A stretch of DNA of 64,000 nucleotides from Devosia sp. SD17-2 (GTDB taxonomy: Bacteria; Pseudomonadota; Alphaproteobacteria; Rhizobiales; Devosiaceae). Of the stretch, positions 54,466 through 63,930 are shown piece after piece. The translations under genes and the position numbers were made by a program. Location of the stretch: NCBI RefSeq assembly GCF_029201565.1, contig NZ_CP104002.1, positions 1,815,001 to 1,879,000 of the forward strand. The letters run 5' to 3'. A model generated the notes under the pieces. It was given only the letters and a program-made list of their open reading frames with translations. It had not been told where the DNA came from and did not search any database. Each line of letters begins with the position of its first letter. The stretch's first letter is position 1.

Positions 54466-55515
54466 ATGAGCCGTAACCGCCGGCCGACCATTATCGATGT
54501 TGCCGAGCGCGCCGGGGTGTCCAAGAGCACCGCAGCGCGGGCACTGGCTGGTTCTTCCAACATCACTGAAGAGACCCGGAAAAAGGTCATCCAGGCGGCC
54601 GAGGCGGTGGGCTATGAGCGCAACCATCTGGCGGTGGGCATGCGCTCGGGACGCAGCGGCATGCTGGGGCTCGTCATTCCCGATATCGCCAACCCGTTCT
54701 GGGCTGATGTCGCGCGTGGCGCGCAGGATCGCGCGGCCAAGGCGGGCGCTTCGCTGCTGGTCTTTTCGTCGGACTGGGACCCGCAGGTCGAGGCGGCTCA
54801 TCTGCGGACGCTGCGGCGGGCCCGGGTGGATGGCGCCATCGTCAATCCCGTCTCCGACAGTTTTGACGATCTTGACCGCTTCGGCATGCCCTGCGTGTTC
54901 ATCGGTTCGAGCGCCGAACGGTTTCCAGATATTTCGAGCGTCGGCTCGGACATCGCCCAGGCCGTGCGGCTGGGCCTCGATTATCTTGTCGCCAAGGGGC
55001 ACAAGGCTCCCGCGCTGATCCTGGGCTCGAAAGGTCGTCTGGCCCGTGCGCGTTTTTTGCGGGCTGTGCATGAGCACTGTGTCGAGCGCGACCTCGATCC
55101 AGCGATCCTGCCGATCGAGGACGGCGAATATACGGTTGAAGGCGGGCGCGAGGCGATGCGGCGCCTGCTGGCGCAACCGCGCGTTGGGCATCTGGCGGTG
55201 TTTGCCGCCAATGACATGATGGCGCTAGGCGCAATGATGGCGGTGCGCGACGCGGGCCTCGATTGCCCGAGCGATGTGTCGATCCTCGGTTTTGACGGGA
55301 TTCCGTCAGGGGAATTTGCCTGGCCGGGGCTCACGACCGTGGCCAAGCCGGGACGCGATATCGGCGAGCGGGCAGTGGAGTGCCTGTTCGATGAGATTGA
55401 ACACAAGCCGGACCACCGGCGAATTTACATGCCGTGCCGACTTCTAGAGCGAGGCTCACTCGCCGATCTGTCGACACAGCATGCCTCGCACATCGCGGGG
55501 GCAGGGAGGGTCTGA
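54466..55515 (+). CDS. LacI-family transcriptional regulator
   Basis: 349 residues from ATG 54466 (GGGAGAGAA upstream). The N-terminal LacI helix-turn-helix and hinge helix read RRPTIIDVAERAGVSKSTAARALAGSSNITEETRKKVIQAAEAVGYERNHLA. The periplasmic-binding-protein-like effector domain follows (SGMLGLVIPDIANPFWADVARGAQDRAAKAGASLLVFSSD ... GFDGIPSGEFAWPGLTTV). It is the first gene of the ABC importer cluster, 2 bases from the permease gene; the effector should be the imported compound or a breakdown product. Confidence 0.93.
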   Translation: MSRNRRPTIIDVAERAGVSKSTAARALAGSSNITEETRKKVIQAAEAVGYERNHLAVGMRSGRSGMLGLVIPDIANPFWADVARGAQDRAAKAGASLLVFSSDWDPQVEAAHLRTLRRARVDGAIVNPVSDSFDDLDRFGMPCVFIGSSAERFPDISSVGSDIAQAVRLGLDYLVAKGHKAPALILGSKGRLARARFLRAVHEHCVERDLDPAILPIEDGEYTVEGGREAMRRLLAQPRVGHLAVFAANDMMALGAMMAVRDAGLDCPSDVSILGFDGIPSGEFAWPGLTTVAKPGRDIGERAVECLFDEIEHKPDHRRIYMPCRLLERGSLADLSTQHASHIAGAGRV

Positions 55516-55517
55516 AA

Positions 55518-56525
55518 ATGACTGCTGATGCCGGTCAAAATTCGACGCGTGCACCAATCGGTGGGAACGTTCCCGCTGACGCAGCCATTCGCACTTCGGG
55601 TGAGTTGGCTAGCAGACTGTTACCCGCGAGGAAGGGTTTTCGCGAAAGCGTGCGCCAATGGTGGCCCTATTACGCGATGATGGCGCCGGGCCTCCTGTTC
55701 TTCTTCGTCTGGCACTATGTTCCGATCTGGGAAGCCAAGATGGCGTTCGAGCAGGTCCGGATCATTCCGCCCAATATCTGGGTCGGGCTGAAGAACTTTC
55801 AGACGCTGTTCTCCTCGCCGCTGTTCTACCAGGTGCTGGCCAATACGCTGATCATCTCGGGCATGAAGATCATCTTCGTGTTCCCCGTTCCGATCATCGT
55901 GGCGCTGCTGCTCAATGAAATCCGCAGCGGTAAGTTTCGCGGGATGATCCAGTCGGCGATCTATCTGCCGCACTTCCTGTCCTGGGTGGTGATCGCGGGC
56001 GTGTTCATTGCGCTGCTGTCGCCTACCGATGGCGCGGTCAACCAGATCCAGACCGCGATGGGCTTTGCGCCCATCAACTACATGACCAATACCGGAACGA
56101 TCCGCTGGGTGCTGGTGATCTCGGAAATCTGGCGCTCGGCCGGTTGGGACAGCCTGCTCTATCTCGCGGCGATCTTTGCGATCGACCCGCAGCTCTATGA
56201 GGCGGCGGAGCTGGACGGCGCGAGCCGCTGGCAGAAGATCCGACACGTCACCATTCCCGGCATCGTGCCGACCATTGCGACGCTGTTCATTCTCAACATG
56301 GGCATGTTCCTCTCGGCTGACCTCAACCAGGTGGTCAACATGCAGAACGCGGTCAATGCGTCGACCATCGATATCCTCGACACCTATGTATACCGCATGG
56401 GCCTGTTTACCGGGGAGTACGCGCTGGCGACGGCGGCGGGCCTCTTCAAGGCTGTGATCGGCATGGCGCTGGTGTTGATCAGCCATTTCATCAGCAAGCG
56501 ACTAACCGGCAAGGGAGTGTGGTGA
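55518..56525 (+). CDS. ABC transporter permease, LplB-like
   Basis: 335 residues from ATG 55518 (GGGAGGG at 55504-55510). Six membrane segments, starting WWPYYAMMAPGLLFFFVWHYVPI. The conserved EAA loop that docks the ATPase is QLYEAAELDGASRWQKIRHVTIPGI. The W-x-A-K-M-AF / IWVGLKNFQTLFSSPLFYQVLANTLIIS pattern fits LplB-type carbohydrate permeases. The first 50 residues are hydrophilic and hold the operator-like sequence described at 55563. The stop overlaps the next ATG (TGATG). Confidence 0.92.
   Translation: MTADAGQNSTRAPIGGNVPADAAIRTSGELASRLLPARKGFRESVRQWWPYYAMMAPGLLFFFVWHYVPIWEAKMAFEQVRIIPPNIWVGLKNFQTLFSSPLFYQVLANTLIISGMKIIFVFPVPIIVALLLNEIRSGKFRGMIQSAIYLPHFLSWVVIAGVFIALLSPTDGAVNQIQTAMGFAPINYMTNTGTIRWVLVISEIWRSAGWDSLLYLAAIFAIDPQLYEAAELDGASRWQKIRHVTIPGIVPTIATLFILNMGMFLSADLNQVVNMQNAVNASTIDILDTYVYRMGLFTGEYALATAAGLFKAVIGMALVLISHFISKRLTGKGVW
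55563..55574. promoter_or_regulatory. Perfect palindrome GGGAACGTTCCC inside the permease 5' end
   Basis: A 12-bp perfect dyad with the same half-site as the two sites upstream of lacI. It encodes part of Gly-Gly-Asn-Val-Pro at residues 16-20 of the permease, so it would be an intragenic operator, about 1.15 kb from the lacI promoter. Confidence 0.5.
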
Positions 56526-62783: not shown

Positions 62784-62840
62784 AGGCCCCCTCATCCGAC
62801 GCTTCGCGTCGACCTCTCCCCCAAGGGAGAGGTGAAGGGG
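62784..62840. repeat. Extragenic palindromic repeat
   Basis: GGCCCCCTCATCCGACGCTT then CGCGTCGACCTCTCCC and CAAGGGAGAGGTGAAGGGG. CGACGC-TT-CGCGTCG and CCTCTCCC-CCAA-GGGAGAGG each form hairpins. It is the same type as the block at 57438-57720 and lies before the ATPase gene. Confidence 0.75.
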
Positions 62841-62874
62841 AGGCCGCCATATGGCGGTGACAGAGGAGACGAAT

Positions 62875-63930
62875 ATGTCGGAGATCGTGCTCAAGCAGGT
62901 GGGCAAGCGCTATGGCAATGTCACCGTGCTCAAGGATATTTCGCTCGAAATGGGCGACGGCGAATTCGTCGTGCTGGTCGGGCCCTCCGGGTGCGGGAAG
63001 TCGACGCTGCTGCGGATGATCGCGGGGCTGGAGGATATTTCCTCGGGCGAGATCACCATTGGCGGAAAGGTCGTCAACAATATGCCGGCCAAGGAGCGGG
63101 ACATCGCCATGGTGTTCCAGAGCTACGCGCTCTACCCCCATATGAAGGTTGCCGACAATATGAGCTTTGCGCTGCGGCTGGCGGGCACGTCCAAGGCCGA
63201 GATCAAGACGCGGGTGGCGGAAGCGGCGGAGATTCTGGGGCTCGAGAATTTGCTCGACCGTCTGCCCAAGGAACTCTCGGGCGGGCAGCGGCAGCGCGTG
63301 GCCATGGGGCGGGCCATCGTGCGCAATCCGCGGGCGTTTCTGTTCGATGAGCCGCTTTCCAACCTCGATGCCAAGCTGCGCGTGAAAATGCGCGGCGAGA
63401 TCAAGCGGCTGCATCAGCGGCTGGGCAAGACGATGATCTATGTGACCCACGATCAGACCGAGGCCATGACCATGGCCGACAAGATCGTGGTGCTCAATGG
63501 CGGCAATATCGAGCAGGCCGGCGCGCCGCTCGAGCTCTACAACAATCCGGCTAATCTGTTTGTGGCGAGCTTTATCGGCTCGCCGGAGATCAATCTCTTC
63601 GAAGCGCGTTACGAGGGCGGGACTTCGGTGCGGGTCGGCGGGCAGGAACTGCCGCTGGGCACGCCGCTCGATGTCCCTGCGGGGACGGAGATTGTTTACG
63701 GCGTGCGGCCGCAGCAGATCACGGTCGGGGCTGAGGGCGTTCCGGTGAGCGTGCAGGTGGTGGAGCCGACCGGGGACGCGCAGGAAGTGCTAGCGCATCT
63801 GGGCGGCGAGGAAATTTCGGTGGTGGTGCGAGACCACGCGCTGCTGCGGCCGGGGGATGAGGTGCGGCTGGTGATCGATCCGGCGCGGGTGTTTGTGTTT
63901 GATAAGGCGACGGGGTTGCGGCTGCGGTGA
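62875..63930 (+). CDS. ABC transporter ATP-binding protein, UgpC/MalK-like
   Basis: 351 residues from ATG 62875 (GAGGAGACGAAT upstream; the ATG 24 bases earlier is less well placed). Walker [11 protein letters not shown]-loop [11 protein letters not shown], signature [15 protein letters not shown], Walker [14 protein letters not shown] and switch His [10 protein letters not shown] are intact. The C-terminal OB-fold regulatory domain ([13 protein letters not shown]...) is MalK-like. It energises the two permeases at 55518-57424. No gene follows in the window. Confidence 0.95.

Follow-up and report, generated by a model that had tools for sequence, protein, structure and literature searches.

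A Sugar-Type Importer Operon of Devosia Encodes Two DraG-Fold Proteins

The subject of this study is an ATP-binding cassette (ABC) importer operon of Devosia sp. SD17-2 that encodes two DraG-fold (ADP-ribosylglycohydrolase family) proteins, here termed ARH1 and ARH2. It was analyzed in a window of 64,000 nucleotides (nt; contig NZ_CP104002.1, positions 1,815,001 to 1,879,000), and positions below refer to this window. The list of open reading frames (ORFs) places seven genes of the importer/DraG region at 54466-63930, all on the plus strand and each with Pfam matches above cut-off. An earlier note, made from the DNA letters, had described a LacI regulator, two permeases, a binding protein, two DraG-fold proteins, and a UgpC-like ATPase lying in one direction, and ORFs and Pfam agree with that description.

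The first gene encodes a LacI-family regulator (54466..55515; PF00356 52.6 bits, PF13377 100 bits). It is followed by an LplB-type permease (55434..56525 as an ORF from its first start; PF00528 55 bits), whose true start, judged by eye, probably lies nearer 55515; an LplC-type permease (56519..57424; PF00528 41 bits); and a solute-binding protein with a signal-peptide-like N terminus by eye (57783..59216; PF01547 75 bits), whose nearest solved relatives include AlgQ1/AlgQ2 (AlgQ2 E 1.5e-10). Next come the genes for ARH1, a stand-alone DraG-fold hydrolase of 392 amino acids (59408..60586), and ARH2, a DraG-fold hydrolase of 698 amino acids with two C-terminal beta-sandwich domains (60662..62758), and the region closes with a UgpC-type importer ATPase (62851..63930; PF00005 119 bits; NCBIfam UgpC subfamily 481 bits, cut-off 432). 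With two PF00528 permeases, an SBP_bac_1 binding protein, and a UgpC/MalK-type ATPase, the importer is of the CUT1/LplBC type. A whole-genome profile search of the 4.23-Mb single-contig genome returned two PF03747 genes, both in this operon.

ARH1 (154.4 bits) and ARH2 (158.5 bits) pass the PF03747 cut-off of 26.2 bits, and both carry the acidic metal-site motifs of the family. In ARH1 these are TDDT at residues 72-75 (59621..59632), with T72, D73, D74, and T75 invariant in 26 rows, and DTDS at residues 320-323 (60365..60376), with D320 and D322 invariant in the same rows. The DraG/ARH3-fold catalytic domain of ARH2 (about residues 2-348; 60665..61705) holds DDDT at residues 58-61 (60833..60844), with D58, D59, and D60 invariant in 34 rows, and DTDC at residues 282-285 (61505..61516), invariant throughout. 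The N- and C-terminal motifs are thus kept in 34/34 aligned ARH2 rows and in 26/26 rows of ARH1 and ARHs, a second, smaller DraG protein of other bacteria (see below). Behind the catalytic domain of ARH2 lie a weakly assigned, CBM-like middle beta-sandwich (about residues 360-530; 61739..62251) and a CBM66-like domain (about residues 533-698; 62258..62755). The AlphaFold2 model of ARH2 has a predicted local distance difference test score of 89.1 and a predicted template-modeling score of 0.90; its catalytic domain has the all-helical DraG/ARH3 fold, and its C-terminal domain has the CBM66 beta-sandwich fold. By eye, no signal peptide was seen in ARH2.

Family tests set the pair apart from the nitrogenase-type DraG model: TIGR02662, the DraG equivalog with a cut-off of 337.05 bits, matched ARH1 with only 52 bits and ARH2 not at all. 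DraT (PF07357) had no match in the genome, yet none in any control genome either, and PADLOC had no match for ARH1, ARH2, or ARHs. At one alphaproteobacterial locus, from an Inquilinus metagenome-assembled genome (L054:6802-8591), a second ARH2-like gene lies directly behind ARH2; it encodes 596 amino acids up to the contig end at 38% identity, and its CBM66-like end was not seen, possibly because the contig stops.

The Operon Is Conserved in Three Phyla

The earlier note had proposed a phylogenetic and neighborhood survey of DraG genes beside ABC importers, and such a survey found the cluster conserved in three phyla. Taking the best 80 of 132 relatives as loci gave 59 alphaproteobacterial loci with ARH2, and one of the contigs, from Devosia (L004), carries an identical (100%) ARH2. 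Orthologues in Clostridia and Spirochaetes are 44-50% identical, and most of their loci have permeases, a binding protein, and a LacI regulator of the same types plus ARHs; the first (LplB-type) permease is 45-53% identical to its clostridial and spirochaetal counterparts. In class-wide searches, ARH2-like matches (E <= 1e-60) occurred in 41/297 spirochaetal and 9/391 clostridial genomes drawn. Spirochaetal matches above 850 bits came from 22 of the 41 genomes; wider regions were taken for 19 of these 22, and one more is locus L072. The wider regions, 40 in all, include some weaker spirochaetal matches and clostridial ones.

For counting, we considered loci with at least 4.5 kb of flank on each side, a rule that set aside 10/59 alphaproteobacterial, 3 clostridial, and 13 spirochaetal orthologue loci and 6/20 distant loci. 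Permeases, binding protein, and both DraG genes occur together in all 49 alphaproteobacterial loci that remain. A second DraG gene is present in 74/74 orthologue loci (ARH2 of at least 650 bits), compared to 1/14 loci of distant homologues. In the DraG-domain tree, ARH2 (100/100) and ARH1 (100/99) each form one group, and 13 ARHs rows cluster together (98/97), L152 standing outside. All three proteins, ARH1, ARH2, and ARHs, are encoded at L151, a clostridial locus. At two spirochaetal loci (L144:8171-8893 and L167:8939-9673), both DraG genes persist together with CitE and CitF, the sugar-binding protein looks different by eye, and a gene has been added; that of L144 encodes a HAD-type phosphatase by Pfam, and that of L167 is similar by eye.

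A CoA-Transferase and a C-C Lyase Follow the ATPase Gene

The operon extends past the window end (position 64000), where it was read in contig L003, whose start corresponds to window position 63001. A type III CoA-transferase of the CaiB type lies at 64153-65355 in the window frame (PF02515 396.8 bits), followed on the same plus strand by a CitE/HpcH-type (HpcH/HpaI-citrate lyase) gene at 65352-66173 (PF03328 111.9 bits). The nearest solved relatives of the former are CaiB/BaiF, formyl-CoA, and succinate-hydroxymethylglutarate CoA-transferases, and those of the latter are acyl-CoA and citrate lyase beta-like proteins. The CitE-like protein stays below the equivalog cut-offs for RipC/Ccl of the itaconate pathway or CitE (126.6 of 375 and 137.2 of 443.4 bits). 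The earlier note had regarded the two DraG proteins as the operon's only candidate breakdown enzymes; these two genes, just past the end of the DNA it described, contradict that view. With them, the better guess at the substrate becomes a glycoside of a hydroxyacid from the citrate family instead of a simple riboside.

CaiB is found in 54/59 alphaproteobacterial ARH2 loci and CaiB with CitE in 47/59. Four of the five loci without CaiB are on contigs that end nearby, and the fifth, L030, has neither CaiB nor CitE despite long flanks. Among the seven loci with CaiB and no CitE, six are of the Ensifer/Sinorhizobium type and one (L045) is at a contig end. The start of CaiB overlaps the preceding gene, either the ATPase gene or ARH2, in 39/53 loci with a measurable gap, mostly by 4 nt, and the median distance between CaiB and CitE is likewise a 4-nt overlap (45 loci). 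In the window genome, ATPase gene and CaiB are instead separated by 222 nt containing a G+C-rich repeat, a gap absent from those 39 of 53 relatives. A 45-nt G+C-rich element was noted at 57681-57725 and 63940-63984, in two intergenic gaps of the operon, as inverted copies that are 76% complementary.

Other transport genes lie on either side. Upstream of the LacI gene, at 51278-54242, small and large permease subunits and a binding protein of the tripartite ATP-independent periplasmic type were seen by eye, preceded by an enoyl-CoA-hydratase-like gene and a divergent MarR-like gene, also by eye. Beyond the window, a separate importer system adjoins the operon on the minus strand (L003:3182-10820), with UgpC-, permease-, and LacI-like proteins by similarity and a binding protein and an FAD-oxidoreductase-like protein by eye; it includes an aldolase-like protein of 227 amino acids without family matches.

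Four Kinds of Acid Module Replace One Another at ARH2 Loci

The acid genes in the cluster are of four kinds. CaiB, mostly with CitE, belongs to the Alphaproteobacteria. CitF with CitE, and often CitD, occurs at L063-L065, L067, L070, L136, L139-L142, L149, L151, L165, and L167 and at the more distant L144. A citryl-CoA-lyase-like protein accompanies a SucCD-like or ATP-grasp ligase at L137, L138, L148, L150, and L170, and AtuA stands with DUF4387 at L071-L074, L077, L078, L080, L083, L131, L133, L135, and L181. None of the 120 loci tabulated has two kinds together.

An acid module accompanies 70/74 orthologue loci (flanks of at least 4.5 kb, ARH2 of at least 650 bits), compared to 1/14 distant homologues; the Fisher p value of 2.6e-11 is descriptive only, since the 650-bit cut was set after the data had been viewed and many loci are close relatives. 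By class, the assessable loci with a module number 48/49 in Alphaproteobacteria, 6/9 in Clostridia, and 16/16 in Spirochaetes. Counting all clostridial and spirochaetal orthologue loci, 30/41 have one; those without are mostly short or cut, although L062 and L069 lack a module despite long flanks, and L166 has CitE alone and no full module.

Profile scores support the module assignments. CitF of the clostridial locus L063 reaches 610.3 bits with TIGR01584 (cut-off 501.45), a score that cannot separate citrate from citramalate. With the citryl-CoA lyase subfamily NF004869 (cut-off 212), L148 is over at 243.5 bits and L137 under at 189.5 bits, and the SucC-like protein of L148 contains the citrate-binding domain of ATP-citrate lyase (PF16114, 37.6 bits, cut-off 26.8). 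Representatives of AtuA and DUF4387 score 85 bits (cut-off 22.8) and 131 bits (cut-off 27), respectively. That different enzymes with the same kind of chemistry were acquired repeatedly is, in our view, the strongest single argument for a citrate-family hydroxyacid being released from the imported compound.

Methylaspartate Clusters Point to Citramalate

The same exchange was seen in a second setting. Of 24 clostridial DUF4387 matches listed, 20 were taken as loci: 6 lie next to methylaspartate ammonia-lyase and 7 next to class I fumarase-type genes, 1 belongs to an ARH2 operon, and the other 6 have different surroundings. Four of the six loci next to methylaspartate ammonia-lyase also have glutamate mutase E and MutL genes in the stretch covered. 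Of 22 methylaspartate clusters, 13 contain CitF, 7 contain AtuA with DUF4387, 2 (contig ends) contain neither, and none contains both. Assuming independence, the chance of zero overlap is 2e-4, and since L171 and L172 are alike in every gene listed, at most 6 of the 7 AtuA-type clusters are independent. In the stretches covered, a class I fumarase (mesaconase-like) gene is present in 13/13 CitF clusters versus 0/7 AtuA clusters, although its absence from L176 and L178 says little because both are cut contigs. In AtuA-type methylaspartate clusters (L172:5036-12079, L174, L177, and similar), a protein of about 300 amino acids with a P-loop-like GAGKS stretch is encoded directly downstream; its L172 copy has no Pfam match.

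We take DUF1446 to be the former name of AtuA/PF07287. In PMC4682846, the CitDEF of clostridial methylaspartate clusters is treated as a putative citramalate lyase, a DUF1446 gene of unknown function is placed downstream of mal in enterobacteria and Dictyoglomus, and what becomes of citramalate in E. coli is left unclear as of 2015. DUF4387 found no mention in the literature searched. By these cluster comparisons, CitF and AtuA with DUF4387 thus stand in for one another at ARH2 loci and, independently, in methylaspartate clusters, which are thought to make citramalate.

Genome-wide CitF scores are a second line pointing to citramalate. In genomes G001, G035, and G126, a second CitF outside the operon scores 624, 745, and 738 bits, versus 577, 457, and 441 bits for the operon copies, so the operon CitF appears to be a separate, more divergent copy. 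Four of the five AtuA-type genomes searched have no CitF match. In the tree, operon CitF falls in several places, none of them inside the methylaspartate clade; the tree thus gave no confirmation of citramalate, and citrate or another homologue could take its place.

A Ribokinase-Like Gene Adjoins the DraG Genes in Some Clusters

Evidence on the sugar comes from genes beside the DraG pair. At ten loci (L062, L063, L066, L067, L069, L070, L072, L073, L078, and L158), a ribokinase-like PfkB gene lies at most 115 nt from a DraG gene; all ten score at least 275 bits with the seeds, L066 and L072. L151 has an adjoining PfkB gene that is more distantly related (143 bits). We did not treat as linked the kinases at L064 (51 bits, 2.9 kb from a DraG gene), L027 (40 bits), and L143 (6.4 kb away), although the kinase tally made with the flank rule includes L064 and L143. 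The best family of the PfkB kinases is ribokinase (234.4 and 225.6 bits), compared to 53 bits for fructokinase. In L070 a TalC/FSA gene (fructose-6-phosphate aldolase/transaldolase-like) directly follows the kinase, and behind the DraG pair of L152 lies RpiB, ribose-5-phosphate isomerase B (167 bits, cut-off 138.65). The Devosia genome has a ribokinase-like gene elsewhere (281 bits, below cut-off).

The Operon Probably Serves Catabolism of a Furanoside of a Hydroxyacid

With somewhat better than even confidence, we read the cluster as an operon under LacI control that imports and breaks down a glycoside joining a furanose, probably D-ribose, to a citrate-family hydroxyacid, most likely citramalate. 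The sequences show which genes are present and conserved, how the modules exchange, the folds and metal motifs, and the similarity to CBM66; we infer the glycosidase activity, the identities of ribose and citramalate, the order of steps, and the role of AtuA with DUF4387. The binding protein and LplBC-type importer would bring the intact conjugate into the cytosol, where ARH1 and ARH2, as metal-dependent DraG-fold hydrolases, would cut its glycosidic bonds. ARH2 may hold the substrate through its CBM66-like domain, and ARH1, or ARHs in most clostridial and spirochaetal loci, may cut a second bond or a partly cut intermediate; the retention of two DraG enzymes in every assessable orthologue locus suggests that there are two bonds to cut or two anomers. 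Phosphorylation of the freed sugar to ribose 5-phosphate, which could enter the pentose phosphate pathway, would fall to a ribokinase; its gene adjoins the cluster in some Clostridia and spirochaetes and lies apart from it in Devosia. The freed acid would be activated to a CoA or acyl-carrier thioester and cleaved to acetyl-CoA (or acetate) and a 2-oxoacid, pyruvate in the case of citramalate. In Alphaproteobacteria, CaiB with CitE would do this; other bacteria would use enzymes of the CitDEF type or a ligase plus a citryl-CoA-lyase-like enzyme, and Sphaerochaeta-type genomes are predicted to use AtuA with DUF4387.

The earlier note had suggested that the DraG fold acts here as a catabolic hydrolase of an imported glycoside, and the metal motifs, CBM66-like domain, conservation, and adjoining ribokinase-like gene support that idea. 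Its example of a simple riboside gives way to a glycoside of a citrate-family hydroxyacid, although a furanoside, probably a riboside, is retained. A bolder version is, in our judgment, rather doubtful: that DraG joined to a CBM66-like domain is an undescribed class of metal-dependent glycoside hydrolase that releases citramalate from a furanoside, probably a riboside, which occurs in nature and has so far gone unrecognized as a bacterial nutrient, and that AtuA with DUF4387 is an undescribed citramalate-cleaving enzyme taking the place of citramalate lyase in this operon as well as in the methylaspartate pathway.

Several observations weigh against a ribosyl-citramalate pathway. To our knowledge, no natural ribosyl-citramalate has been described, and none of the literature matches listed concerned a ribosyl or glycosyl citramalate. 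On the sugar side, the PfkB kinases fall under the TIGR02152 ribokinase cut-off of 299.65 bits, a kinase is present in 0/49 assessable alphaproteobacterial clusters, the Devosia operon included, and the CBM66-like domain hints at fructofuranose over ribose. The second hydrolase is not the same throughout: one group has ARH1, whereas others have a member of the distinct ARHs clade. The contig of L068 ends in its small DraG gene. On the acid side, neither CaiB nor CitE is present at L030, the six Ensifer/Sinorhizobium-type loci have CaiB without CitE, and 11/41 clostridial and spirochaetal loci, among them L062 and L069 with their long flanks, have no module. The operon CitF of G573 scores 731 bits, G258 has CitF elsewhere yet AtuA with DUF4387 in its operon, and the CCL-type genome G103 is without CitF. 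In the CitF tree, no operon copy joins the methylaspartate clade and that of L151 (731 bits) sits beside a non-operon copy. In Dictyoglomus, too, a DUF1446 gene stands beside mal (PMC4682846).

The nearest alternative keeps the scheme and changes its components: the acid would be citrate or another homologue (malate, homocitrate, or 2-alkylmalate) and the sugar fructose or another furanose. The Citrate_bind domain of the L148 SucC-like protein and the high-scoring L151 operon CitF, grouped with non-operon CitF, speak for citrate, and the similarity of ARH2 to CBM66, a fructan binder, speaks for fructose. Free citrate in an aerobe with a tricarboxylic acid cycle should, however, need no CoA-transferase and lyase, AtuA with DUF4387 occurs in clusters thought to make citramalate, and the kinase is ribokinase-like rather than fructokinase-like, with TalC after the kinase in L070 and RpiB after the DraG pair of L152. 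We consider this alternative unlikely, though the most probable of those weighed here. That the DraG enzymes release ribose from nucleoside-like imports or ADP-ribose, the acid genes being unrelated neighbors, seems to us improbable. Such scavenging would fit the activities of the family on ADP-ribose, the ribokinase-like genes nearby, and E. coli yegTUV, where a DraG protein and a sugar kinase are paired with a predicted nucleoside transporter; it would leave unexplained why four kinds of acid module accompany the operon in three phyla and why CaiB so often overlaps the gene upstream, and the SBP_bac_1/AlgQ-like binding protein also argues against it.

The remaining two explanations deny that the enzymes are glycosidases, and we give each very little credence. 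If ARH1 and ARH2 were ordinary protein ADP-ribosyl hydrolases regulating an enzyme of the host cell, and in the operon by chance, their PF03747 membership and the weak match of ARH1 to the DraG model would be expected; the distance from the equivalog cut-off (52 of 337 bits, and none for ARH2), the fusion to a CBM66-like domain, and the persistence of the pair with importer and acid module across three phyla all oppose this. The DraG fold might otherwise cut a non-glycosidic bond, such as an ester or amide of the acid, since water activated at the metal site might in principle serve other hydrolyses and the acid modules suggest only that an acid is released. Against this, characterized members of the PF03747 family act at the anomeric carbon of a ribose, and the CBM66-like domain and the ribokinase-like, RpiB, and TalC genes point to a sugar.

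If the furanoside-hydroxyacid reading is true, a branch of the DraG/ARH family would move from the reversal of protein modification into carbohydrate catabolism, with the CBM as architectural support. Soil and gut bacteria would be predicted to use a class of natural conjugates between sugars and hydroxyacids. The reading would also give a concrete enzyme hypothesis for DUF4387 with AtuA at the step left open in PMC4682846: a citramalate-cleaving AtuA with DUF4387 could account for the fate of citramalate there.

Comparison with Known Systems

Bacteroides ribose loci contain a DraG-type gene. In E. coli, yegTUV combines a transporter, the DraG-family protein YegU, and the sugar kinase YegV, under the repressor GgaR, which shows that other operons, too, join a DraG gene with a transporter and a sugar kinase. 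Several ARH1 and ARHs rows share 23-28% identity with YegU along most of its length. The E. coli system differs in having a transporter of the major facilitator superfamily type and a single DraG protein of 334 amino acids without a C-terminal extension, and no acid module is present within the 9 kb viewed. In PMC10819704, the functions of its genes are called unknown and are linked to ADP-glucose and glycogen.

The ADP-ribosyl hydrolases ARH3, ARH1, and DraG share PF03747 with the operon pair, which lies far below the DraG equivalog score; unlike them, ARH2 adds CBM-like domains and belongs to a gene cluster that looks catabolic. The CBM66 of Bacillus subtilis levanase has its counterpart here joined to a DraG-fold enzyme that, by eye, lacks a signal peptide. 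The clostridial methylaspartate pathway resembles the operon in having CitF or AtuA with DUF4387 and never both (22 clusters), and differs in that its acid derives from glutamate, not from a glycoside. Two permeases, an AlgQ-like binding protein, and a UgpC/MalK-type ATPase are likewise found in the alginate AlgQ-type/LplBC/CUT1 importers; unlike in alginate-type systems, the operon genes scanned include no match to a polysaccharide lyase or classical glycoside hydrolase family. Among the literature matches listed, no description was found of a DraG-CBM66 fusion, of paired hydrolases, or of the acid modules, and nothing apart from the yegTUV paper resembled this system. The operon thus appears to represent glycoside catabolism through an ABC importer, a known kind of system, here with hydrolases from an unusual family and substrates of a class predicted to be new.

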